Assembly (NCBI RefSeq): GCF_009735685.1
Contig: NZ_WHPN01000283.1
Span: forward strand, 20,444 to 76,240
DNA: 55,797 nucleotides
Direction of reading: 5' to 3'
DNA from: Streptomyces lycii
Lineage (GTDB): Bacteria > Actinomycetota > Actinomycetes > Streptomycetales > Streptomycetaceae
The translations under genes and the position numbers were made by a program. The notes below the pieces were generated by a model. The model saw nothing but the letters and a program-made list of their open reading frames with translations, was not told where the DNA came from and ran no database searches. The first letter of the stretch is position 1, and each line of letters opens with the position of its first letter. This document shows, piece after piece, positions 4,449-17,140 of this stretch.

Positions 4449-4490
4449 AAACCAGCAAGGTAAATGATGTCAACTCAAGGGAGACTCTCC

Positions 4491-6623
4491 GTGCGGACCG
4501 CTCCTTACGGAACGTGGCCCTCTCCTGTATCCGCCGCCGAAGCGGCCGCCGGGGAGGCCCTGATCGAGTGGGTCGGCTTCGTCGGTGACGAGGTGTGGTG
4601 GGTCGAGAGCCGCCCCGGGGACGGCGGGCGCAGCGCGCTCGTCAGCGGCACCCCGGGCAATACACCGGTCGATGTGCTCGGCCCCGAGTGGAACGTACGC
4701 ACCAAGGTCATCGAATACGGCGGGCGGCCCTGGCTGCCGCTCGGACCGGAACCGTCGGCGGGTTTCGTCTTCACCCACTGGGACGACCAGCGGGTGTACC
4801 GGGCGCTGCCCGGACGCGGCCCGGAGCCGGTCAGCCCCGCCCCGGACCACCCCGCGGGCACCCGCTACTGCGACTTCGCCCGGGTCGGCGACGAGGTCTG
4901 GTGCCTGCGCGAAGAGGCCACCGGCCCCGCCGGCACGGAGGTCCGCAGGGACCTCGTCGCCCTGCCCCTGGACGGCGCAGCCGCCACGGACCCCGGGCGG
5001 GTACGGGTGCTCGCCGCCAGCCACCACTTCATGACCGGCCCGAAGGTCTCCCCCGGCGGTGACCGGGTGGTCTGGATCGGCTGGGACCACCCGACGATGC
5101 CCTGGGACGCCACCGACCTGATGTGCGCCCCGGTCGCCGCCGACGGCACCCTCGGCCCCCCGCGACGCGTCGCGGGCGGGGACGGGATCTCCGTCACCCA
5201 GGCCGAGTGGGCCCCCGACCAGCCCGGAGTGCTCTACGTCCTGAGCGACCCCGGCGGCTGGTGGAACCTCCACGAACTCCGCCCGGACGGCACCACCCGG
5301 GCGCTGTGTCCCCGCGCCGAGGAGTTCGGCGAGCCGCCGTGGCGCATCGGCAGCCGCTGGTTCGTTCCCGCGGGCGGCGGACGGCTGTTCGTCACCCACG
5401 GCACCAGCGAGCGGCGGCTGGCCGTGCTGGACGCCGACGGCTCCCTGCGCGACATCGGCGACCCCTACACCGAGTGGTCCCACCCGGCGACCGACGGCAC
5501 CCGGGTCGCGGGTGTCGCCGCCGGGCCGCGCCTCCGCCGCCGGGTCGCGCTGGTCGACCCCGGGCGCCCCGGCGCGACCGGCCTGCGCCCCGCGGAGCTG
5601 CGGCACGCGGACCATCTGCCCGAGGGCCGGCACACGGTCTTCCGCGGCACGGACGGCGAGGACGTGCACGCCTTCGTCTATCCCCCGCACCACCCCGGCT
5701 ACCGGGCGCCCGCCGGGGAACTCCCGCCGTTCCTGGTCCAGGTGCACGGCGGCCCGACCACCCGCAGCCAGCTCGTGGTCGACTACCGGATCGCCTACTT
5801 CACCAGCCGCGGCATCGGTGTCGTGGACGTGCAGTACGGCGGCTCGACCGGCTTCGGCCGTGACTACCGCGAGCGCCTGCGGGAGAACTGGGGCGTCGTC
5901 GACGTACGCGACTGCGCCACCGTCGCCCGGGGCCTCGTCGAGCGGGGGCTCGCCGACCCCGGCAGGATCGGCATCCGCGGCGGCAGCGCGGGCGGCTGGA
6001 CGTCGGCGGTGTCGCTGGCGGCCGAGCCGGAGCTGTACCGCGTGGCCGGCATCTACTTCCCGCTGCTGGACCCGGAGTCCTGGCGCGGGCCCGGCACGCA
6101 CGACTTCGAGTCCCGCTATCTCGACAGCCTCATCGGCCCCTGGCCGGAGGCGGCGGAGCGCTACGCGCGGGTCTCACCGCTGCGGCAGGCCGACCGCATC
6201 CGCAGCCCCTTCGTCATCATGCAGGGCCTGGAGGACGCGATCTGCCCGCCCGTGCAGGCCGAGCGCTTCCTGGCGCGGCTGGACAACGGCGACGGCACCG
6301 TCCCGTACGCGTACCTCGCCTTCCCCGGGGAGCAGCACGGCTTCCGCCGGGCGGAGACCGTGATCGCCTGCCTCCAGGCCGAACTGTCCGCCTACGCCCA
6401 GGTCTTCGGCTTCGACCCGCCGGACGTGCCCCGGCTGGACCTCTCACCACGCTCCTTCCCGGGCTCCGCCCAGGACCCGGAACCCACGCCCGGCGCCACC
6501 GCGCCGACCCCACCGGCCACTTCCGCGCCCACCACGACATCCACCCCTGCGGCCGTCCCGGCGCCCGCGCCCGCGCCCTTTGGTGACGGGACCGGCCACG
6601 GCACTCCGGAGGCAACGACATGA
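4491..6623 (+). CDS. S9 family prolyl-oligopeptidase-type serine peptidase
   Basis: 710 residues: an N-terminal beta-propeller-like region with repeated D-G segments, then an alpha/beta-hydrolase domain. The nucleophile is in GGSAGGW (Ser499), the acid near EDAICPP (Asp582) and the His in EQHGF (His616). This resembles acylaminoacyl or dipeptidyl peptidases. No signal peptide is visible, so it is probably cytosolic. A Pro/Thr/Ala-rich tail of about 60 residues follows the catalytic domain. GTG at 4491 is preferred over ATG 4464 because AAGGGAG at 4477-4483 is well spaced. The stop overlaps the next ATG (ATGA). A role in trimming a precursor or inactivating the product for self-protection is inferred. 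Confidence 0.88.
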   Translation: MRTAPYGTWPSPVSAAEAAAGEALIEWVGFVGDEVWWVESRPGDGGRSALVSGTPGNTPVDVLGPEWNVRTKVIEYGGRPWLPLGPEPSAGFVFTHWDDQRVYRALPGRGPEPVSPAPDHPAGTRYCDFARVGDEVWCLREEATGPAGTEVRRDLVALPLDGAAATDPGRVRVLAASHHFMTGPKVSPGGDRVVWIGWDHPTMPWDATDLMCAPVAADGTLGPPRRVAGGDGISVTQAEWAPDQPGVLYVLSDPGGWWNLHELRPDGTTRALCPRAEEFGEPPWRIGSRWFVPAGGGRLFVTHGTSERRLAVLDADGSLRDIGDPYTEWSHPATDGTRVAGVAAGPRLRRRVALVDPGRPGATGLRPAELRHADHLPEGRHTVFRGTDGEDVHAFVYPPHHPGYRAPAGELPPFLVQVHGGPTTRSQLVVDYRIAYFTSRGIGVVDVQYGGSTGFGRDYRERLRENWGVVDVRDCATVARGLVERGLADPGRIGIRGGSAGGWTSAVSLAAEPELYRVAGIYFPLLDPESWRGPGTHDFESRYLDSLIGPWPEAAERYARVSPLRQADRIRSPFVIMQGLEDAICPPVQAERFLARLDNGDGTVPYAYLAFPGEQHGFRRAETVIACLQAELSAYAQVFGFDPPDVPRLDLSPRSFPGSAQDPEPTPGATAPTPPATSAPTTTSTPAAVPAPAPAPFGDGTGHGTPEATT

Positions 6624-7840
6624 CACGACGGGTCCTGCTGATCGGCTGGCGGCCGGACGCGGTGGCCGCCCTCCAGCACCTGGGAGCCGAGGTGACCTGT
6701 GTGCTGACCCCGCCCGAGGACCGCGACCGGCGGCGGGGGCGGCTGCTCCCCGACGCCGCGGTGGTGCCCGTGGAGGATCCGTCCGGCGTCGAATCGGTGC
6801 TGGCCGGGCTGGTCCGCCGCGGGCTGTCCGCCGCCGACTTCGACGTGGTCTGCAGCCAGGCCGAGTTCACCCTGGTCAACACGGCGGTCCTGGGCGGCGC
6901 ACGGAGCGGTACGACACCCGAGGACGCCCTCGCGCTGCGCGACAAGGACCTTCAGAAGCGGCGGATCCGCTCGGCGGGACTCCCCGTCGCGGACTTCCGG
7001 CACCTGGTCCACGCCCGCCAGCTCACCGGCTTCCCGCACACGCGCGGCGTCCTCAAGCCGCTCGCCAGCTCCGGCACCCGCGGCGTGCGCTCCTGGCAGA
7101 GCGCGGAGGAACGCGCCGGGGTCGCCCGCGACACGGAGCGGTCCGGCGCCACCGGCCCCTGGCTGGCCGAGGAGTGGATCGACGGCGCCGAACTGCACGT
7201 CGACGGCGTCGTCCGCGGCGGCCAGGTCGTGTTCGTCTCGGTCGGCCGCTATCTGCAGAACGTCCTCGCCATCCGACAGGGCGGCATCGTCGCCTCCGTC
7301 GTCCGGCACCCCGCGCACCACGAGCAGCTGTACGCCCGGGCGCGGGAGTTCGCCGAGCGGGCCATGAAGGCGCTCGGGCACCACGACGGGGTCTTCCACA
7401 TGGAGGTCTTCGACCAGGGCGACCGGCTGGTGTTCGGGGAGTGCGGCGGGCGCATACCCGGCGGCTCGTTCGACGAGATGATCCGCCGCCAGCACGGGGT
7501 GGACCTGCACGGCGAGTGGGCCCGGGCCGTGCTCGGCCTGCCGCCCGCGGCGCGCCCGGACCCCGTGGCCGGGTGGGTGGGCGACGTCTTCCTGGCCACG
7601 GCCGCGGGCGTGGTGCGCTCGCTGCCCGCGGAGAGCGAGGTGGCCCGGCAGGAGGGCGTGCTCCATGTCGTACTGGAGGCGCGCCCCGGCGACACGCTGT
7701 CCAGCGCGCGCGAGGCGTCGTGCAGCCACGCCGGTACCGCGGTGGTGGTGGGACGGGACGAACGGGAGACGGCCGACCGCATGCGGCGGCTCGCGGCCTG
7801 GTTCGCGGAACGGGCGGTGATCGACCCGGCGGCACCCTGA
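6620..7840 (+). CDS. ATP-grasp ligase 1
   Basis: 406 residues with the ATP-grasp fold signature: an N-terminal Rossmann-like part, the Lys of GVLKPLASSGTRGV, EEWIDGAELHVDG, and the metal-binding end HMEVFDQGDRLVFGECGGRIPGG. It resembles carboxylate-amine ligases such as L-amino acid ligases, which make an amide bond through an acyl phosphate. It starts inside the stop codon of the S9 peptidase gene (ATGA), so the pair is coupled. With a second ATP-grasp gene nearby, the cluster has two ATP-dependent amide-forming enzymes plus one A-T protein, which suggests a di- or tripeptide. Substrates are unknown. Confidence 0.88.
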   Translation: MTRRVLLIGWRPDAVAALQHLGAEVTCVLTPPEDRDRRRGRLLPDAAVVPVEDPSGVESVLAGLVRRGLSAADFDVVCSQAEFTLVNTAVLGGARSGTTPEDALALRDKDLQKRRIRSAGLPVADFRHLVHARQLTGFPHTRGVLKPLASSGTRGVRSWQSAEERAGVARDTERSGATGPWLAEEWIDGAELHVDGVVRGGQVVFVSVGRYLQNVLAIRQGGIVASVVRHPAHHEQLYARAREFAERAMKALGHHDGVFHMEVFDQGDRLVFGECGGRIPGGSFDEMIRRQHGVDLHGEWARAVLGLPPAARPDPVAGWVGDVFLATAAGVVRSLPAESEVARQEGVLHVVLEARPGDTLSSAREASCSHAGTAVVVGRDERETADRMRRLAAWFAERAVIDPAAP

Positions 7841-8408: not shown

Positions 8409-9662
8409 GTGCACACCACACCGTCGGCACCGCCCCGGCTGCTGCTGCTCGGCGGCGCGAACCCGCTGCCGTCGAGCGTCGACATCGTCGGGCTCGCGCT
8501 GGACCAGGCGCGCAGCCGCGGCATCCGCACCCATGTCACCCACCGGGCGGAGATGCTCGCGTCGACCCCGCGGATCACCGAACGGGCCGACGGCGCCTCG
8601 GCGGTCGACCCGGAGGACGCCGGTGCCTGCCTGCGGTGGGCCCGGGACCGCCTCGCCGCGGGCGACCGCTTCGACGCGGTGCTGGGCCTGCGGGACACCG
8701 TGCTGGACGCGACCGCCCGGACCGCCTCGCTGCTCGGGGTACCGGGCAACGAACCCGCGGCCGTACGCCGTACCCGTAACAAGGACGCCTGCCGGGAGGC
8801 GCTGGCCCGGGCGGGGTTCCGGCAGCCGGCCGTGCGGCTGTGCGGTACGGCCGACGAGGCGGCGGCGTTCCTGGCGGAGTCGGCCGGACCGTGGGTGGTC
8901 AAGCCGCGGGACGGCATGGGCAGCGTCGGCGTGACGAAGGTGAACGGCCCGCGGGAGCTGCCGGCGGCGCTCGGCGCGCTGCCGGACCGGAGCCCGTTCC
9001 TGGTGGAGGAGTTCGTCACGGGAGCGGAGTTCAGCGCGGAGGGTGTCTTCCTCGGCGGCCGTCCGCGGGTGCTCGCCGTGACCGCGAAGGAGTTGCTGCC
9101 GCCGCCGTGCTTCGTGGAGATCGGGCACGTGCTGCCCGCGGAGCTGCCGGAGGCGGCCCGGCGCGAGATCGAGGACCGGGTGTGCGCCGCGCTGACCGCC
9201 CTGGAACTGCGGTTCGGGGTCTTCCACGTGGAGTTGTGGCTGACCGGGGACGGCGTGGTGCTCGGCGAGGTGCACGTACGGCCCGGCGGCGACTGGCTGC
9301 ACTCGCTGCTGACGTACGCCGTTCCCGGTCTCGAACTGTTCGGGCTGCTCTACGACGACCTGCTGGGCCGCCCCGTGCGGCAGGACCTCGCGCCGACGCG
9401 GGCGGCGGCGGTGCGCTTCCTCGCCCCGGCCCCGGGACGGCTGGTCCGGGTCCGGGGCTGGGAGGAACTGCTGGCCCATCCGGCGGTGCTGCGCGCGGAA
9501 CTGACCGTCACCCCCGGCACGGTCCTCCCGCCGGTACGGCACTCCGGGGACCGGGCGGGGTTCGTCGTCGTCGGCGCGGACACCCCGGCGGGGGCACGCC
9601 GGCTGGCGGAACGGCTCGCCGCATCGGTGGACTTCGTCGTCGAGCCGGCGCGGGCGGCCTGA
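8409..9662 (+). CDS. ATP-grasp ligase 2
   Basis: 417 residues; ATP-grasp family. The central and C-terminal parts carry VVKPRDGMGSVGV, LVEEFVTGAEFSAEG and FHVELWLTGDGVVLGEVHVRPGG, matching the nucleotide and metal-binding segments of carboxylate-amine ligases. The N-terminus (LLLLGGANPLPSS) is a typical pre-ATP-grasp segment. The GTG start follows GGAGAGA at 8398-8404. It is only distantly similar to ligase 1, so the two probably make different bonds. A hairpin sits on its stop codon, and the next gene is convergent. Confidence 0.88.
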   Translation: MHTTPSAPPRLLLLGGANPLPSSVDIVGLALDQARSRGIRTHVTHRAEMLASTPRITERADGASAVDPEDAGACLRWARDRLAAGDRFDAVLGLRDTVLDATARTASLLGVPGNEPAAVRRTRNKDACREALARAGFRQPAVRLCGTADEAAAFLAESAGPWVVKPRDGMGSVGVTKVNGPRELPAALGALPDRSPFLVEEFVTGAEFSAEGVFLGGRPRVLAVTAKELLPPPCFVEIGHVLPAELPEAARREIEDRVCAALTALELRFGVFHVELWLTGDGVVLGEVHVRPGGDWLHSLLTYAVPGLELFGLLYDDLLGRPVRQDLAPTRAAAVRFLAPAPGRLVRVRGWEELLAHPAVLRAELTVTPGTVLPPVRHSGDRAGFVVVGADTPAGARRLAERLAASVDFVVEPARAA

Positions 9663-9673: not shown

Positions 9674-10156
9674 TCCCGGGTGCGTCGGGACGGGGACCTC
9701 CGCGGTCGCCGGGGCACGGACGACCTCCGCGACAGCCGCAGGGCACACCGACTCCGCGACAGCCGCAGGGCACACCGACTCCGCGACAGCCGCAGGGCAC
9801 ACCGACTCCGCGACAGCCGGAGCGCAGACGGCCTCCGCGACAGCCGCAGGGCGGACGATCTCCGCTCCGGACGTCGCGGAGGTCGTTCCGCCCCGGCGAG
9901 GCGTCCGCCCCGGCCGAGGCGGAAGCGCGCCTCCGGCCGCCCGGGCAGCACTTGTTCCCCGGCGACCGGAGCGAAGGTCACTCCCCGGCGGACCGGGCAG
10001 CGCTCACTCCCCGGTGACCGGGGCAGCACTTGTTCCCCGGCGACCGGGACGGACGTCATCCCCGGTGACCGGGACGGAGTTCGGGCCGCCGTCGCAGGGA
10101 CGGAGGCGGGCCGCCGTCGCTGGGACGGAGGCGGGCCGCCGTCGCTGGGACGGGGG
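9663..10156. other. Spacer between convergent genes, filled with repeats
   Basis: 494 bp between ATP-grasp ligase 2 (+) and the XRE regulator (-). It contains the 27-bp array (9725-9859), then short direct repeats of the type CCCCGG(C/T)GACCGG around 9956-10070 and GGACGGAGGCGGGCCGCCGTCGC around 10100-10150. No gene is supported on either strand. Confidence 0.6.
9725..9859. repeat. 27-bp tandem repeat, five copies
   Basis: Copies begin at 9725, 9752, 9779, 9806 and 9833, each starting CTCCGCGACAGCC. The first three are nearly identical (ending GGGCACACCGA) and the last two are diverged. The array lies in the non-coding gap between convergent genes. Confidence 0.9.
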
Positions 10157-11404
10157 TCACTCCGCGGTGGTCGGTGTCGTCTCCTGGAGCCAGCGGGCGC
10201 TCTCCAGGGTCTCGGCGAGAAGGCGCCAGATCTCGGCGGCGAGGTCGATGTTCGCCGCCTGCCTGGCTTCCTCGCCCAGCTCCTTGAGCCGCTGCAGCCC
10301 CTTCTCCTGACGGCCCTCCAGGATCATCAGCCGGCTGTCGAGAATGCTCAGCCTGACCCGGTCCCGGTATGTCAGCAGCAGTTCGCCGCCGAGCAGTTCG
10401 TCGTGCGCCGCGCGGGCGTCCTCCAGCCGGCCCTCCTGGAAGGCGAGGTGCGCCTGGAGGGTCAGCAGCTCCTGGCGCAGCCGCGGGGTGCCGACGAGCG
10501 ACAGAGCGGTCTCCGCCTCCCGCAGGCAGTCGCGGCTGCGGTCCGTGAGCGGCGGGGTGATCTGGAGGTAGAGGGAGGCCGCGGCCAGCCTCAGCCGCAG
10601 CCACAGGATCAGATCGCTGTGGCTGTCCAGGATGCCCAGGGCCCGTTCGAGGTGTTCCCGGGCCCCGTCGTGGTCGCCCTGCCGGAAGCGCACCGTGGCG
10701 GCCGACCAGAGTGCCTCGGCCTTCAGGGTGTCCGTGGCGTCCTCCACCAGGCCGACCAGCTCGTCCACATGCGTCCGGGCGTCGGGCAGCCGCCCGACCT
10801 CGGCCTCGACCGAGACCAGGGTCAGCAGTGCCTGTCCGATGTCCGGCACGGAGAGCTTGGCCTCCTGCTTGGCCAGCTGGTACGCCCGCTCGGCGACGCC
10901 GATCGCCCGGGTCACCTCACCCAGCGACCGCAGACAGCGGGCGAGCTGGGTGAGGGCCCGGCACTGGAGCTCGGGGAGGCTCAGCTCGTCGGCGATCCGC
11001 GTCAGCTCCTCCAGACAGGTCTGCTCCTTGCCGTGCTCGCCCTGGAACCTCCAGTAGCGGGCGACGGTCCAGAAGGCCTGCCAGCGCAGCAGCGGATCGG
11101 CGTCGTCGGCGTCCTCCAACGCGGTGATGACACCCTCGACCGCCTGGTCGTTGTCCGTGGAGTTCGCGATGCTCAACGCCTGGGCCAGCGAGTCCCCGCT
11201 CTGCGGAAGATCGAAAGCTGAGCGGTCCACGCCCAGCTGTTCCGCGAGGTAGGTGATCACCCGGTCCGTGGGTTGCCGCGCACCGGACTCAAGTCGTGAC
11301 AAGTATCCGGTGGAGATCTTGTCTCCCGCGAGAATCGCCTGGGAGAGTCCGCGCTTCTTCCTCAGTTCTTTGAGGCGGCGCCCGAAGTACGGCTGTTCGG
11401 TCAT
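10157..11404 (-). CDS. XRE-type regulator with TPR-like repeats, probable cluster regulator
   Basis: 415 residues. An N-terminal Cro/CI-type helix-turn-helix (residues about 7-60; KKRGLSQ, GYLSRLESGARQPT) is followed by a long all-helical region of TPR-like repeats (for example AIGVAERAYQLAKQEAK, AREHLERALGILDSH, ARAAHDELLGG) of the kind used to sense peptides or small ligands. ATG 11404 is chosen over ATG 11410 because AGCGAG is better spaced. It lies centrally in the cluster, divergent from the dioxygenase gene, and a perfect palindrome sits between them. A role as pathway-specific regulator is inferred; activator or repressor cannot be told. Confidence 0.85.
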   Translation of the reverse strand: MTEQPYFGRRLKELRKKRGLSQAILAGDKISTGYLSRLESGARQPTDRVITYLAEQLGVDRSAFDLPQSGDSLAQALSIANSTDNDQAVEGVITALEDADDADPLLRWQAFWTVARYWRFQGEHGKEQTCLEELTRIADELSLPELQCRALTQLARCLRSLGEVTRAIGVAERAYQLAKQEAKLSVPDIGQALLTLVSVEAEVGRLPDARTHVDELVGLVEDATDTLKAEALWSAATVRFRQGDHDGAREHLERALGILDSHSDLILWLRLRLAAASLYLQITPPLTDRSRDCLREAETALSLVGTPRLRQELLTLQAHLAFQEGRLEDARAAHDELLGGELLLTYRDRVRLSILDSRLMILEGRQEKGLQRLKELGEEARQAANIDLAAEIWRLLAETLESARWLQETTPTTAE

Positions 11405-11739
11405 ACGCATCTCGCTATCCACATGCCCGGATGTGACGTCAGGCCAGCCGGCCACACCTCCGTCACATCTGCACAGAGGACCAACAGGCTGATCATTCCA
11501 GAGGAAGCATAGCACCCGTTTCTCCGGCGCGGCAAGAAACATTGCCCGACGAATCGCCAAGTAACTTACATCTTTCCGCACCCCTTCCAGATACATTTCG
11601 GCAAACTTCTTGGCAATATATTGCCTAAGCCTTGTCACATCGCTAGGTTGGACCCGCCTTTGGCCGGTGCCCGACTCAGGAGGGATGCCGATCCGGGCCG
11701 GGCTCCGACGACCACCGACACGGATAGGAGTTCGACTGC
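11405..11739. promoter_or_regulatory. Divergent promoter region, regulator / dioxygenase
   Basis: 335 bp and clearly more AT-rich than its surroundings. It contains the GGCAATATATTGCC palindrome (listed separately) and a second inverted repeat, TGTGACG (11432-11438) with CGTCACA (11461-11467), close to the regulator start; another TGTCACATCG occurs at 11633. The second motif could be an autoregulatory site. The dioxygenase ribosome binding site ATAGGAG is at the right end. Confidence 0.55.
11600..11625. promoter_or_regulatory. Candidate cluster operator 2 (GGCAATATATTGCC palindrome)
   Basis: A perfect 14-bp palindrome at 11612-11625, with an extra GGCAA half-site 12 bp upstream (11600-11604). 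This is the best copy of the motif shared with 4435-4448 and 17114-17140. It lies in the regulator/dioxygenase divergent promoter. An XRE dimer binding GGCAA half-sites is the natural model. Confidence 0.65.
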
Positions 11740-12549
11740 ATGACACCATCGACCACGCTTCCGCGCGCCGGCGCGACGCCCCTGGACGGCGATCAGCTCG
11801 ACCAGTTCGCGCGCCTCGGTTACCTCGTCCTGCCCGGTTTCCTCCCCGACGACCTGGTGTCGCGGCTCGTGCCCGAGGTCGACCGCTGGGTCGACGAGGG
11901 CCTCCGCACCCAGTCCATAGCCTGCTGCGTCGAACCACAGCTCCACGGCAACCCGCCGGTCCTGGAACTCGAACTGGAGGCACACGGGGAACTCATCGCC
12001 CACCCGCCCCTGATGGACGCCATCACCCAGCTGATGGGTGCGGAGTTCGTCTTCCACCACCTGCACAGCGACCGGCAGCCGCCCGGCATCGCCGGAAAGC
12101 CCTGGCACCACGACTACGAGCAGACCCCGCAGACCGACCGTACACACCCCATGGTGCACGCCCTGCACTACCTCGACGGGCTCGACGAGGACACGTCGTC
12201 CCTCGCGGTGCTTCCGGGGTCGCACCACGAGGTGGCCGAGAAGAACGCCCGCGCCCACCTCGGCACCGGCCGGTTACCGGGAGAGGTCGTCATCGACAGC
12301 CTGCCCCGGGGCTCCACGGTCGTGCTGCACTCCGCGCTGTTCCACGCCCGGCGCCCCCGGCCCGACGGCCCCGGCAAGGACCGGTACTTCGTCGACGCCT
12401 CGTACTGCCGGACCGGGACCCTGTGGCCGCCGGTCAAGCCGTACTGGCGGCACATGCTCAGCCGGGCCAGGGAACTCGGGCTGGACCGCGGCCGGTGGCC
12501 GGAGCTCTTCGCGGAGCGCCACTTCACGGAGTACGCCCGGCCCTCCTGA
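11740..12549 (+). CDS. PhyH-type Fe(II)/2-oxoglutarate dioxygenase (contains a TTA codon)
   Basis: 269 residues; Phytanoyl-CoA dioxygenase family. The facial-triad HxD is in WHHDYE (His123-x-Asp125, nearby His124) and the distal His in LFHARRP (about His202), with a following Arg for 2-oxoglutarate. LPGSHHE is also typical. These enzymes hydroxylate, epoxidise or halogenate small or carrier-bound substrates. ATG 11740 has ATAGGAG upstream. Codon 179 (12274-12276) is TTA, so translation should need the bldA tRNA if this is Streptomyces. Likely tailors the amino acid loaded by the A-T protein (inference). Confidence 0.9.
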   Translation: MTPSTTLPRAGATPLDGDQLDQFARLGYLVLPGFLPDDLVSRLVPEVDRWVDEGLRTQSIACCVEPQLHGNPPVLELELEAHGELIAHPPLMDAITQLMGAEFVFHHLHSDRQPPGIAGKPWHHDYEQTPQTDRTHPMVHALHYLDGLDEDTSSLAVLPGSHHEVAEKNARAHLGTGRLPGEVVIDSLPRGSTVVLHSALFHARRPRPDGPGKDRYFVDASYCRTGTLWPPVKPYWRHMLSRARELGLDRGRWPELFAERHFTEYARPS

Positions 12550-12600: not shown

Positions 12601-12637
12601 GCACGTCAGACCCCTGCATGCCACGAGAGGAGGGGGA

Positions 12638-13702
12638 ATGCTCTATTCAGGAGTGTCCTGGCACACCGGCGGCTACCACGTCGAGGTGCTGGACGGCGAC
12701 GGCCGGCGGGCGATGCCGCCGGCGGAGTTCACCGCCGGCCGTGCCGGAGAGCTGATCGCGTATCTCCGGGCGGTCGGCGAACGCATGGTCACGGTGGTGG
12801 AGAGCACCAACGGAATTCTCGACGGCCGCCTGATGGCCGCGGGCCTGGAGGTGTACCGGGCCGATCCGCATCTGCTGCCCGAACGCCCGCTGTTCGGTTC
12901 GGTGTCCGCCACCGACCTCGCCCACACGGCGCGGCGGAACCTGGACCGGCTCACCCGGCTGGAGAGACGGCGCGGCACCCAGACGGGGCGGGAGGCCGAG
13001 CTGGACGCGTGGATCGTGTCCAGCTCGGCGGAGGTGGACACGGCCGTCATGGAGGGCCGCTGCCTCAGCCACGGTGAGCGCGACCGGCCCACGGTCGCGC
13101 TCACGTTCGACGACGGTCCCCTGCCGCCGTACACCGGCCAGATCCTCGACATTCTGGAGCGCTACGGCGTGCCGGCGACGTTCTTCTGCGTCGGCATGCA
13201 CGCCCGGGCGTACCCGGAGGAACTGGTCCGGATGCGCGAACAGGGCCACGCCCTCGGAAACCACACGTGGTCGCATCCGTTCCTTCCGGAACTGACCCGG
13301 TCGCAGCTCACCGAGCAGCTCGACCGCGCCGGCGAAGCCATCGCCGGGGCGAGCGGGGGCGGCGTGCCGTCGCTGTTCCGCCCGCCGTACGGGGCACGGA
13401 CCCCGCAGGTGATGGAGTGGCTGGCCGCGGCGGGACCGCGGATCGTGCTGTGGGACGTGGTGCCCGACGACTGGTCGATGCCGGGGGCGGAGAGCATCGC
13501 CGCGGCCGTGCTCGACCAGACACGGCCGGGTTCCGTGGTGCTGCTGCACGACGGCGGAGGCGACCGTTCGCAGACGGTGGCCGCGCTGCCGCCCGTCATC
13601 GAGGGGTTGCTGACACGCGGTTTCCGCTTCGTGCCGGTGCACGAGCTGCTGCCCGCGTCCCGCCGTCAGGCGGAGCCGGGACTGACCGCGGCCGCTTCCT
13701 GA
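12638..13702 (+). CDS. Fusion: IS110-transposase-like N-terminal domain + NodB polysaccharide deacetylase
   Basis: 354 residues. Residues about 150-345 are a complete NodB domain: TFDDGP (156-161), HTWSH (209-213), RPPYGA, WDVVPDDW and LLHDG. Residues 1-125 instead look like the RuvC-like N-terminal half of IS110-family transposases (YSGVSWHTGGYHVEVLD, VVEST, LMAAGLEVYRADP, SVSATD). The first catalytic Asp appears replaced by Ser7, while Glu55 and Asp93 may remain. There is no signal peptide, so it should act on a cytosolic small molecule, for example removing an N-acyl protecting group. It has an excellent GAGGAGGGGG ribosome binding site. NodB is firm; the IS110 relationship is by eye. Confidence 0.85.
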   Translation: MLYSGVSWHTGGYHVEVLDGDGRRAMPPAEFTAGRAGELIAYLRAVGERMVTVVESTNGILDGRLMAAGLEVYRADPHLLPERPLFGSVSATDLAHTARRNLDRLTRLERRRGTQTGREAELDAWIVSSSAEVDTAVMEGRCLSHGERDRPTVALTFDDGPLPPYTGQILDILERYGVPATFFCVGMHARAYPEELVRMREQGHALGNHTWSHPFLPELTRSQLTEQLDRAGEAIAGASGGGVPSLFRPPYGARTPQVMEWLAAAGPRIVLWDVVPDDWSMPGAESIAAAVLDQTRPGSVVLLHDGGGDRSQTVAALPPVIEGLLTRGFRFVPVHELLPASRRQAEPGLTAAAS

Positions 13703-13708
13703 CACCCC

Positions 13709-13747
13709 GCGGCGCCGGCACCGTCCTCCGACGGTGACCGGCGCCGC
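13709..13747 (+). terminator. Strong hairpin after the deacetylase-fusion gene
   Basis: GCGGCGCCGG (13709-13718) pairs with CCGGCGCCGC (13738-13747), with an inner CCGTC/GACGG stem. It lies 7 bp after the stop and 65 bp before the oxidase start. It could terminate or attenuate transcription into the oxidase gene. Confidence 0.6.
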
Positions 13748-13811
13748 ACCCTTCCGCGGTGCCGGCGACCGCGCAGCGGACCGGCACCGCCCGTACCGCA
13801 CAGGAGTGCCA

Positions 13812-15293
13812 GTGACCATCACCCATTCCACTTCCACCCGGACAACCGAGACACCACCGGGACCGAAGCCGCCCCGGGCGGACCGGGCACAGACTCCGGA
13901 TCAGACGGATCCGGCACAGCCGGACCCGGCGCAGGCACGGACGGACCAGGCACAGCCGGATCCGGCGCAGGCGGCGCAAGCACAGGCGGCGCAGACGACG
14001 GAACAGGCCGCGGTGGGGACCGCGGTGCGGACCACCGTGCAGACCGCGGTGCGGACCGCGAACTGGGCCGGCAACGTCACGTACGGCTCACCGCGCATCC
14101 ACCGCCCGCACAGCCTGGCCGAGCTGCGAGGGCTGGTCCGCGACCACGCCCGCATCCGGGCGCTGGGCAGCGGCCACTCGTTCAGCCTCGTCGCCGACTC
14201 CGACCACGACCTCGTGCGCCTGGACGGTCTGCCGCCGCACGTCGACGTCGACCCGGGGCGGGCGACCGCGACCGTGACCGCGGGCATGCGCTACGCCGAG
14301 GTCGCCGTAGCGCTGGACCGCGCCGGATGGGCGCTGCCGAACCTGGCGTCGCTGCCGCACATCTCCGTGGCGGGCTGCTGCGCGACCGGAACCCACGGAT
14401 CCGGGAACCACCGGCGCTGCCTGGCGGCCTCCGTACGCGCCCTGCGGCTGCTCGGCCCGGACGGCGACCTGGTCGAACTGGGCCGCGACACGCACCCGGA
14501 CACCTTCCCGGGAGCCGTCGTCGCCCTCGGCGCGCTCGGGATCGTCACCGGGGTCACGCTGGACATCGAGCCGCGCTACGAGATGACCCAACGGGTGCGC
14601 ACGGACGTACCGCTGGACGAGGTGGCCGACCGGTTCGACGCCGTGTTCGCCGCGGCCACCAGCGTCAGCGCGTTCACCGACTGGCGCAGCGGCCGGGCCG
14701 ACGTCTGGCTCAAGCACCGGACGGACCGGCCCGCGGGCGACTGGCGGGGCGGCCGCCCGGCGACGGCCCCGCGGAACCCGGTCCCGGGCATGCCCCCGGA
14801 GTTCAGCACCGAGCAACTCGGGACGGTCGGCCCGTGGTTCGAGCGGCTGCCGCACTTCCGCCCCGAACTGACGCCGGGCGCGGGCGAGGAACTCCAGTCC
14901 GAGTACTACCTGCCGCGCTCCTCGGCCCCGGTCGCGCTGGCCGCGATCAGATCCGTCGGTGACGTGGTGGCTCCGCTGCTGCACATCGCGGAGATACGGA
15001 CGGTCCGCGCGGACGACCTGTGGCTGAGCCCCGCGTACGGAAGGGACTCGGTCACGTTCCACTTCACCTGGGTCAACGACCTCGAAGCGGTGCGGCCGGC
15101 CATCGCCGCGGTGGAGGGGCAACTGCTGCCGCTGGGCGCACGGCCGCACTGGGGCAAGCTGACCGGCCTGACCCCGCGGGAACTCGGGGCACGTTACGAG
15201 CGGGGCGCGGACTTCGGCCGCCTGGCCCGGTCCATGGACCCGACGGGCAAGTTCCGCAACGCGTTCACGCAGGAACTGCTCGCGGACCTCTGA
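13812..15293 (+). CDS. Alditol-oxidase-like FAD-linked oxidase
   Basis: 493 residues. It has an FAD-binding_4 domain with the GSGHSF motif (His122, the covalent-flavin His in alditol oxidases) and a C-terminal ALO-type domain ending in HWGKL and DPTGKFRNAF. Relatives oxidise sugar alcohols or other primary alcohols to aldehydes or acids, giving H2O2. The N-terminus has about 75 extra residues of D/P/A/Q-rich repeats (PDPAQ units) not found in AldO-sized proteins. The GTG at 13812 is preceded by CAGGAG. The substrate here may be an alcohol made by the upstream dioxygenase (inference). Confidence 0.88.
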   Translation: MTITHSTSTRTTETPPGPKPPRADRAQTPDQTDPAQPDPAQARTDQAQPDPAQAAQAQAAQTTEQAAVGTAVRTTVQTAVRTANWAGNVTYGSPRIHRPHSLAELRGLVRDHARIRALGSGHSFSLVADSDHDLVRLDGLPPHVDVDPGRATATVTAGMRYAEVAVALDRAGWALPNLASLPHISVAGCCATGTHGSGNHRRCLAASVRALRLLGPDGDLVELGRDTHPDTFPGAVVALGALGIVTGVTLDIEPRYEMTQRVRTDVPLDEVADRFDAVFAAATSVSAFTDWRSGRADVWLKHRTDRPAGDWRGGRPATAPRNPVPGMPPEFSTEQLGTVGPWFERLPHFRPELTPGAGEELQSEYYLPRSSAPVALAAIRSVGDVVAPLLHIAEIRTVRADDLWLSPAYGRDSVTFHFTWVNDLEAVRPAIAAVEGQLLPLGARPHWGKLTGLTPRELGARYERGADFGRLARSMDPTGKFRNAFTQELLADL

Positions 15294-15336: not shown

Positions 15337-15456
15337 CCCGGGGGTCCGGGTACCGGTAACCGCTTCCGCGGCGAATCCGGGTCACGCGACCTGCACCGGT
15401 CGCGTCGACAGGGGTCCTGGGCGGGACGACGGCCCTGTCGGCACGGGTGTCCTGAG

Positions 15457-15540
15457 CCGGACGACGACCCCGTCCACACGAGACCCCTGGGCCGGACGAC
15501 GACCCCGTCCACACGAGACCCCTGGGCCGGACGACGACCG
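15457..15540. repeat. 35-bp tandem repeat, about 2.4 copies
   Basis: Units beginning CCGGACGACGACC start at 15457, 15492 and 15527. A diverged unit seems to precede them from about 15422. Non-coding. Confidence 0.85.
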
Positions 15541-16268: not shown

Positions 16269-17060
16269 TCAGCGGGCGGCCCGCTGGGCCTCCACGATCC
16301 GGTGAGCAACGTTCCGCGCCTCGCCCTCGGGCTGCTTCCTCCCGGTGAATCCTGGGAACTGCCCGGCCAGCGCGCAGTTCAGCCGGAGTTTCCAGGGGGC
16401 GATGTTGACCTCGGCACGGCCTGTCCGGATGGCGCCGACCACGGCGGTGGCCACCTGCTCCGGCGACACGGTGCGCAGGCCACCGGGCACGGGCGCACCC
16501 GTATCGGCGAACATGCCCGCCTCCCCCACGAAACCCGGCTGGACGAGCGAGACCCCCACACCGGCGCCGCGCAGATCCTGCCGCAGGCTGTGCGCGAAGC
16601 CCCGCAGCCCGAACTTGCTCGCGGTGTACAGGGAGGACAAGGGCGTGGCGGCCTTGCCCGACATGGAGCCGACGAAGGCGAGATGCCCCCGCCCGACGGC
16701 GACCATGCGGGGCGCCAGCAGCCGGGCCAGTACGACCGGAGCGCGCAGGTTCACTTCCAGGGCCCGGTCGACCTGGTCGACCGTGTACTCCAGCAGGTCC
16801 CCGCTGGCGGGCACGGCGGCGTTGGCCACCAGGATGTCGGTGTCCTCGCACACGTCCGCGAGCCGCGCCACGTCACCGCGCTCGCCGAGATCGGCGGTCA
16901 CGTACCGGGCCCCCAGCTCGGCGGCCAGCGGTTCCAAGGCGTCCGCCCGGCGCCCGGTCATGACCAGACAGGCTCCCGCCTCGGACAGTTGGTGCGCCAG
17001 CGCCCGTCCGATGCCGCCGGTCGCCCCGGTAAGCAGCACGGTCGCTCCGTCGATACGCAT
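16269..17060 (-). CDS. Short-chain dehydrogenase/reductase (SDR)
   Basis: 263 residues, classical SDR: TGATGGIGRAL nucleotide motif (residues 11-21), NAA, the active-site Ser (GSMSG) and YTASK. It probably uses NADP(H), as an Arg pair (GRR) follows beta-2. ATG 17060 has GGGAGG upstream. Its promoter carries three GGCAA direct repeats, matching the motif in the other cluster promoters, which ties this outlying gene to the peptide cluster. It may reduce or oxidise a carbonyl intermediate, for example the oxidase product (inference). Confidence 0.9.
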   Translation of the reverse strand: MRIDGATVLLTGATGGIGRALAHQLSEAGACLVMTGRRADALEPLAAELGARYVTADLGERGDVARLADVCEDTDILVANAAVPASGDLLEYTVDQVDRALEVNLRAPVVLARLLAPRMVAVGRGHLAFVGSMSGKAATPLSSLYTASKFGLRGFAHSLRQDLRGAGVGVSLVQPGFVGEAGMFADTGAPVPGGLRTVSPEQVATAVVGAIRTGRAEVNIAPWKLRLNCALAGQFPGFTGRKQPEGEARNVAHRIVEAQRAAR

Positions 17061-17113
17061 AGGGCCTCCCGTTCCCAGTCCTGACTCGGCGGTTGAGCCA
17101 ACAGTACCGAAGA

Positions 17114-17140
17114 GGCAAGCCTGTGGCAATATGAGGCAAC
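17114..17140. promoter_or_regulatory. Candidate cluster operator 3 (three GGCAA direct repeats)
   Basis: GGCAA starts at 17114, 17125 and 17135, about one helical turn apart. The middle copy is part of GGCAATAT, the string shared with the other two cluster promoters. On the SDR coding strand a perfect TTGACA (17151-17146) lies just upstream, so the repeats fall in or near the promoter spacer. Confidence 0.6.

Follow-up and report, generated by a model that had tools for sequence, protein, structure and literature searches.

What is a transposase-type domain doing at the front of a deacetylase? The question is raised by one gene, hereafter the fusion gene, in a 55,797-nucleotide stretch of Streptomyces lycii DNA (assembly GCF_009735685.1, contig NZ_WHPN01000283.1, positions 20,444 to 76,240; the whole stretch is called the window here). 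A preliminary description held that residues 1-125 of its product resemble the N-terminal half of IS110 transposases, with the first catalytic Asp changed to Ser7, and lead without a signal peptide into a complete NodB domain with all five motifs. Here, we describe this protein and its family. It is a CE4 (carbohydrate esterase family 4) deacetylase-family protein containing an IS110-homologous domain, and not an IS110 recombinase. We think it likely that a RuvC-like domain homologous to IS110, lacking three acids of the DEDD motif and captured once, is joined to an intact CE4/NodB domain in a predicted cytosolic, metal-dependent N-deacetylase, where it would cap or shape the substrate site.

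The full-length structure model is confident as a whole (predicted local distance difference test, pLDDT, 94.9; predicted template modelling score, pTM, 0.92), which suggests that the two domains pack against each other in a fixed way. The N-terminal part is predicted to adopt an RNase-H-like fold and its nearest structure is the bridge-RNA recombinase IS621, whose RuvC domain (residues 1-122, likewise N-terminal) shares this fold across 101 residues (2.2 Å, 25% identity); RuvC and RuvX give structural Z scores below that of IS621. Profile-profile comparison of the fusion domain with an unfiltered set of 63 IS110 domains yielded a probability of 96.8 and a score of 63.7, and with 15 IS110 domains picked by motif a probability of 97.2 and a score of 69.6 over 109 columns, these 15 being the best-scoring subset and 97.2 therefore a favoured choice. 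Control runs with 100 column shuffles scored 20.0 or less. The RuvC and RuvX Holliday-junction nucleases have no sequence-profile similarity to the fusion domain (scores 16.8 and 16.2, probabilities 0.8 and 0.7, respectively), and a RuvC hidden Markov model (HMM) gave 0/151 matches. An earlier set of 29 IS110 domains, most of them from one clade, had given a probability of 89.8, which the wider sample raised; a single clade as the sole comparison set gave 27.2. The HMM of the N-terminal domain also matched 14 loci outside the family, 12 of which were confirmed as IS110 with Pfam, used here since our own IS110 profile contained 8 of them. The other two were counted as misses (L146, nothing on re-scanning; L147, a chance-like match). 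A predicted structure and a profile search had been set beforehand as the refuting tests of the preliminary description. The structure proved RNase-H-like and the profiles detected IS110 and neither RuvC nor RuvX; together, this supports a transposase-type fold kept inside a deacetylase-family protein, with its extent corrected from residues 1-125 to residues 1-111.

IS621 requires D11, E60, D102 and D105, according to part of its description (PMC11208158). D11 and E60 align with fusion positions 7 and 55, and D102/D105 with 87/90 in two alignments and with 88/91 in another, so the register differs; the window protein has S7, E55, G87 (or S88) and S90 (or A91) at these positions. Residues were counted in an alignment of 120 sequences, the window protein and 119 homologues, after removal of P0002, which is identical to the window protein. 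Position 7 is S in 69, A in 43, G in 7 and a gap in 1, and never D; the proposed loss of the first Asp holds, and was too narrow a claim in that the loss extends to the third and the fourth acid. Only the Glu of the DEDD motif is retained, as E (67) or D (53) at position 55. The two possible registers give G 110, A 6 and S 4 at position 87 and P 87, S 14, A 7, G 5, T 5, Q 1 and E 1 at position 90, or S 112, A 7 and G 1 at position 88 and A 114, P 3 and S 3 at position 91. Position 93 (window 12914-12916), three residues past the aligned position, lies at the start of the helix in which the last Asp of IS110 is found. The loop equivalent to that of D102, which in IS621 meets the serine of the transposase (Tnp) domain (PMC11208158, in part), is shortened by 7-8 residues, and the Tnp domain with this catalytic serine (PF02371) was found in 0/73 family members at an expectation value (E) of 10, the NodB domain taking its place. 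Because three of the four DEDD acids are lost, the loop is shortened and there is no Tnp domain, the front domain is predicted to be dead as a nuclease.

The NodB domain is complete, as first described. It matches PF01522 (Polysacc_deac_1) over residues 146-267 with an E of 2.6e-36 (124.8 bits against a curated cut-off of 23.1), and D158, D159, H209, H213, R248, D273, D278, W279 and H304, residues of the five motifs, are all kept in 120/120 sequences. CE4 enzymes use an Asp-His-His metal triad with a catalytic base and acid, all within the five motifs, and by analogy we take D159, H209 and H213 to bind the metal, with D158 as base and H304 as acid. All 10 NCBIfam models listed fall below their cut-offs, including the equivalog TIGR04243 (NodB chitooligosaccharide deacetylase; 154.3 against 240) and PdaB (151 against 237). 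The lack of a signal peptide was likewise borne out: 98/120 sequences start exactly at residue 1, extensions reach 27 residues at most, and 15-residue segments in the first 45 residues never exceed a mean hydropathy of 1.6 in the 120 sequences, no signal-peptide program having been run. Among 50 entries listed in a structure comparison of the full-length model, no chain spans both domains. One candidate, 5jp6, spans residues 40-349 with 199 residues aligned, and was given no weight.

The same fusion occurs elsewhere, in full-length homologues and in other genomes. Homologues among the best 120 of 6883 matches cover 89-100% of the query, and a search for free-standing N-terminal domains, covering lengths of about 74-234 amino acids among the best 7992 candidates, listed 9 short matches, two of them labelled partial by their source. 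Genome samples show a sporadic distribution. The genus sample has the fusion in 20/392 genomes (18 full matches, 2 partial) among 29 with any match, the remaining 9 comprising 7 IS110 and 2 unconfirmed; the class sample has it in 4/394 genomes, with a fifth match to IS110, and the phylum sample in 2/396, the other five matches being IS110. Carriers with names are all actinobacteria, both among the homologues listed and among 9 of the best 80 loci that match from the first three residues, in a search by name that reached outside the phylum. Two carriers, Micromonospora rosaria (L009, about 7 kb apart) and genome G719 (on two contigs), have two fusion genes each, and in one locus (L138, genome G767) the gene lies in two frames with profile matches at 2-87 and 77-131, and is broken or mis-assembled. 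Mean pairwise identity is 66.5% for residues 51-118, 66.7% for the NodB domain and 40.4% for residues 1-50. Within the front domain, conservation is highest in the loops of the former active site (residues 55-64 and 74-91) and in the GTQTGR loop (113-118), and seven N-terminal columns checked (S56, G59, G63, G69, R74, D76 and G113) are invariant in the 120 sequences. Ratios of nonsynonymous to synonymous substitution rates (dN/dS; simple Nei-Gojobori estimate without G+C-bias correction) are 0.16-0.54 for the N-terminal part in close gene pairs (whole-gene dS <0.3, among pairs listed).

Genes around the fusion gene are given in Table 1. Partners were counted by tblastn with the named proteins in 29 distinct loci (the window, 9 and 19 others; L013 and L167 look like one record and were counted once), and the counts are lower bounds, with several loci stopping at contig ends. 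PhyH accompanies the fusion in 12/29 loci (in 8 of them as the gene directly upstream), followed by the ALO oxidase (11), XRE-TPR regulator (10), aldo-keto reductase (AKR, 7), SDR (7), an ATP-grasp ligase like the second one in the window (6) and a family-2 glycosyltransferase (5). A second context, in 9/29 loci (L155, L156, L158-L160, L162-L165), combines a stand-alone condensation domain with a major facilitator superfamily (MFS) pump, and 4 of these also have an AurF-type oxygenase and an LCM methyltransferase. The third (2/29) has an aminotransferase, a Gfo/Idh/MocA oxidoreductase and an AMP-binding enzyme. By their gene content these loci look like natural-product clusters of differing chemistry; a literature search for the product of the window's cluster found nothing relevant. 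In the window, tandem repeats at 9708-9852 (27-bp unit, about 5 copies, 93% match) and 9933-10153 (25-26-bp units) surround the 3' ends of the second ATP-grasp and the XRE-TPR regulator genes. Another, with a 35-bp unit (3.5 copies, 87% match), lies at 15416-15539 downstream of the ALO oxidase gene, whose open reading frame (ORF) begins with about 100 residues of Gln/Ala/Pro-rich repeats (13734-14040), so that its true start may be downstream.

Table 1. Features of the fusion gene and its surroundings in the window (HTH, helix-turn-helix; TPR, tetratricopeptide repeat; FAD, flavin adenine dinucleotide).
Feature	Position	Strand	Basis
Fusion gene, IS110-type RuvC-like domain and CE4/NodB deacetylase, 354 amino acids	12638..13702	+	ORF reading, Pfam, homologues, model
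RuvC-like (RNase H fold) domain, residues 1-111, homologous to IS110 recombinases	12638..12970	+	Structure, sequence profiles, residue counts
Residues 112-145, conserved GTQTGR loop and two helices linking the domains	12971..13072	+	Predicted secondary structure, conservation
CE4/NodB domain, residues 146-339, metal and catalytic residues intact	13073..13654	+	Pfam, structure comparison, residue counts
AGGAGG, likely ribosome-binding site of the fusion gene	12628..12633	+	Read directly, upstream of ATG
S9 prolyl-oligopeptidase-type hydrolase	4464..6623	+	PF00326 5.5e-39
ATP-grasp ligase	6620..7840	+	PF02222 4.7e-07
ATP-grasp, L-amino-acid-ligase type	8409..9662	+	PF18603 4e-23, PF13535 1.7e-19
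XRE-type HTH and TPR regulator ORF	10157..11983	-	HTH from residue ~199, so gene start likely near 11410
PhyH-type Fe/2-oxoglutarate dioxygenase	11740..12549	+	PF05721 8.3e-10
FAD-dependent sugar-lactone-oxidase-like gene (ALO)	13734..15293	+	PF04030 2.4e-17, PF01565 1e-15
Short-chain dehydrogenase (SDR)	16269..17129	-	PF00106 1.9e-38

A biosynthetic role is predicted for the enzyme, gene neighbourhoods being the sole pointer to it. With no export signal visible and tailoring enzymes as neighbours, the enzyme likely acts on a small N-acylated intermediate of biosynthesis, and because the clusters look natural-product-like with different chemistry, the step that they share is likely a simple one, in which an acyl group is taken off the nitrogen of a small intermediate. 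The front domain would most likely form one rigid unit with the NodB domain and confer stability or selectivity for the substrate. We propose that its GTQTGR loop and the loops of the old active site form or support a cap beside the NodB groove, which would make the enzyme selective for a small cytosolic substrate. A single capture, likely from an actinobacterial IS110-type recombinase, would then have been followed by spread among biosynthetic gene clusters. In a fuller proposal, which we put forward more tentatively and with some doubt, actinobacteria captured the RuvC nuclease domain of a bridge-RNA (IS110) recombinase a single time; the domain then lost its DNA chemistry, and its active-site face was rebuilt for recognition and now controls a biosynthetic N-deacetylase.

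The simplest reading, though not a proven one, is capture from an IS110-type element. A quick-method tree (140 columns, 80 rows, unrooted) of 19 fusion rows and 61 IS110 domains places the fusion rows in one group with a Shimodaira-Hasegawa approximate likelihood ratio test (SH-aLRT) support of 100. The lost first Asp is followed by Trp8, and the pair DW occurs in 21/21 members of one IS110 clade against 0/25 and 2/15 in the others; this DW-bearing clade also has the highest profile score against the fusion domain (60.8, against 53.2 and 27.7). Several observations weigh against capture or against the proposed role. Grouping of the fusion domain with one IS110 clade has a support of 67 only, and IS110 clades score 82-140 among themselves against 28-61 for the fusion domain to them. 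The tree did not resolve descent from within IS110, and the profile distances speak against a domain simply nested in that family; the domain may instead be sister to IS110, or it may be fast-evolving. Pfam gives no match on the N-terminal part of the window protein, and PF01548 was found in 0/73 family members at an E of 10, where the HMMER filters drop most weak matches. An acid is sometimes present at the fourth site (position 90 is E in 1/120, and E or D in 3/31 genome copies), and position 93 is D or E in 88/120 and D in the window protein, which could be a shifted acid near the old site. N-terminal dN/dS often exceeds that of the NodB domain among the pairs listed, none of the three partner sets was found in 6/29 loci, and the hypothetical cap role draws on the high pTM and conservation alone. 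PF01548 has no match in the window's own genome, hence no local donor was found.

The profile distances, with the long fusion stem (1.94) in an unrooted tree, would also fit a front domain that is a non-mobile sister lineage, sharing an ancestor with the IS110 RuvC domain and never part of a transposon. We consider this unlikely: Trp8 characterizes a single IS110 clade, the search for free-standing domains revealed no such sister beyond its short matches, and the named carriers are all actinobacteria, where IS110 is common (28/60 phylum genomes). An inert front domain, kept as a relic or as a solubility handle and without a share in catalysis, is very improbable, for although the nuclease residues are mostly lost and residues 1-50 are less conserved than the NodB domain, alignments of the listed homologues take in 89% or more of the query, residues 51-118 are conserved as well as the NodB domain, dN/dS is below 1 in the pairs listed, and the seven columns checked are invariant.

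Retained binding of RNA or DNA, by which the front domain would place or regulate the deacetylase, has in its favour the retained fold and the contacts that IS621 makes with bridge RNA and DNA through its RuvC domain (PMC11208158, in part). The loss of three acids and of 7-8 residues of the D102 loop, the absence of a Tnp domain by Pfam and neighbours that are small-molecule enzymes make it more improbable still. The most remote of these explanations, suggested by the likeness of the NodB domain to peptidoglycan and xylan deacetylases, is that the protein is secreted and is an ordinary deacetylase of cell wall or chitin whose N-terminus varies; against it stand the absence of a hydrophobic start, NCBIfam models that all fall short of their cut-offs and biosynthetic-looking neighbourhoods.

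The preferred reading, a captured IS110-type domain in a predicted N-deacetylase, would mean that the catalytic domain of a mobile element is reusable as an accessory of metabolism, and that a group of gene clusters gains a sequence handle in the front domain. Pfam knows this family as a deacetylase only, and a literature search covering few subscription papers or preprints found no published IS110-deacetylase fusion or domesticated IS110 RuvC. Compared with the CE4/NodB deacetylases Bc1960, PdaC and SpPgdA, the fusion protein lacks a hydrophobic signal start and has an IS110-type N-terminal domain, and its gene has natural-product-like neighbours. Compared with IS621, the equivalents of D11, D102 and D105 are lost, residues 112-145 occupy the place of the coiled coil and Tnp domain, and a deacetylase is joined instead. 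A transposase piece has thus likely been reused to build a probable natural-product enzyme. Captured parts of mobile elements such as Cas1, Xer and Hin-type recombinases and RecET remain in DNA or RNA work, as far as the relevant part of PMC8987985 describes them, whereas here an IS110-type RuvC fold, acid-poor yet conserved, is found within an apparent small-molecule enzyme.
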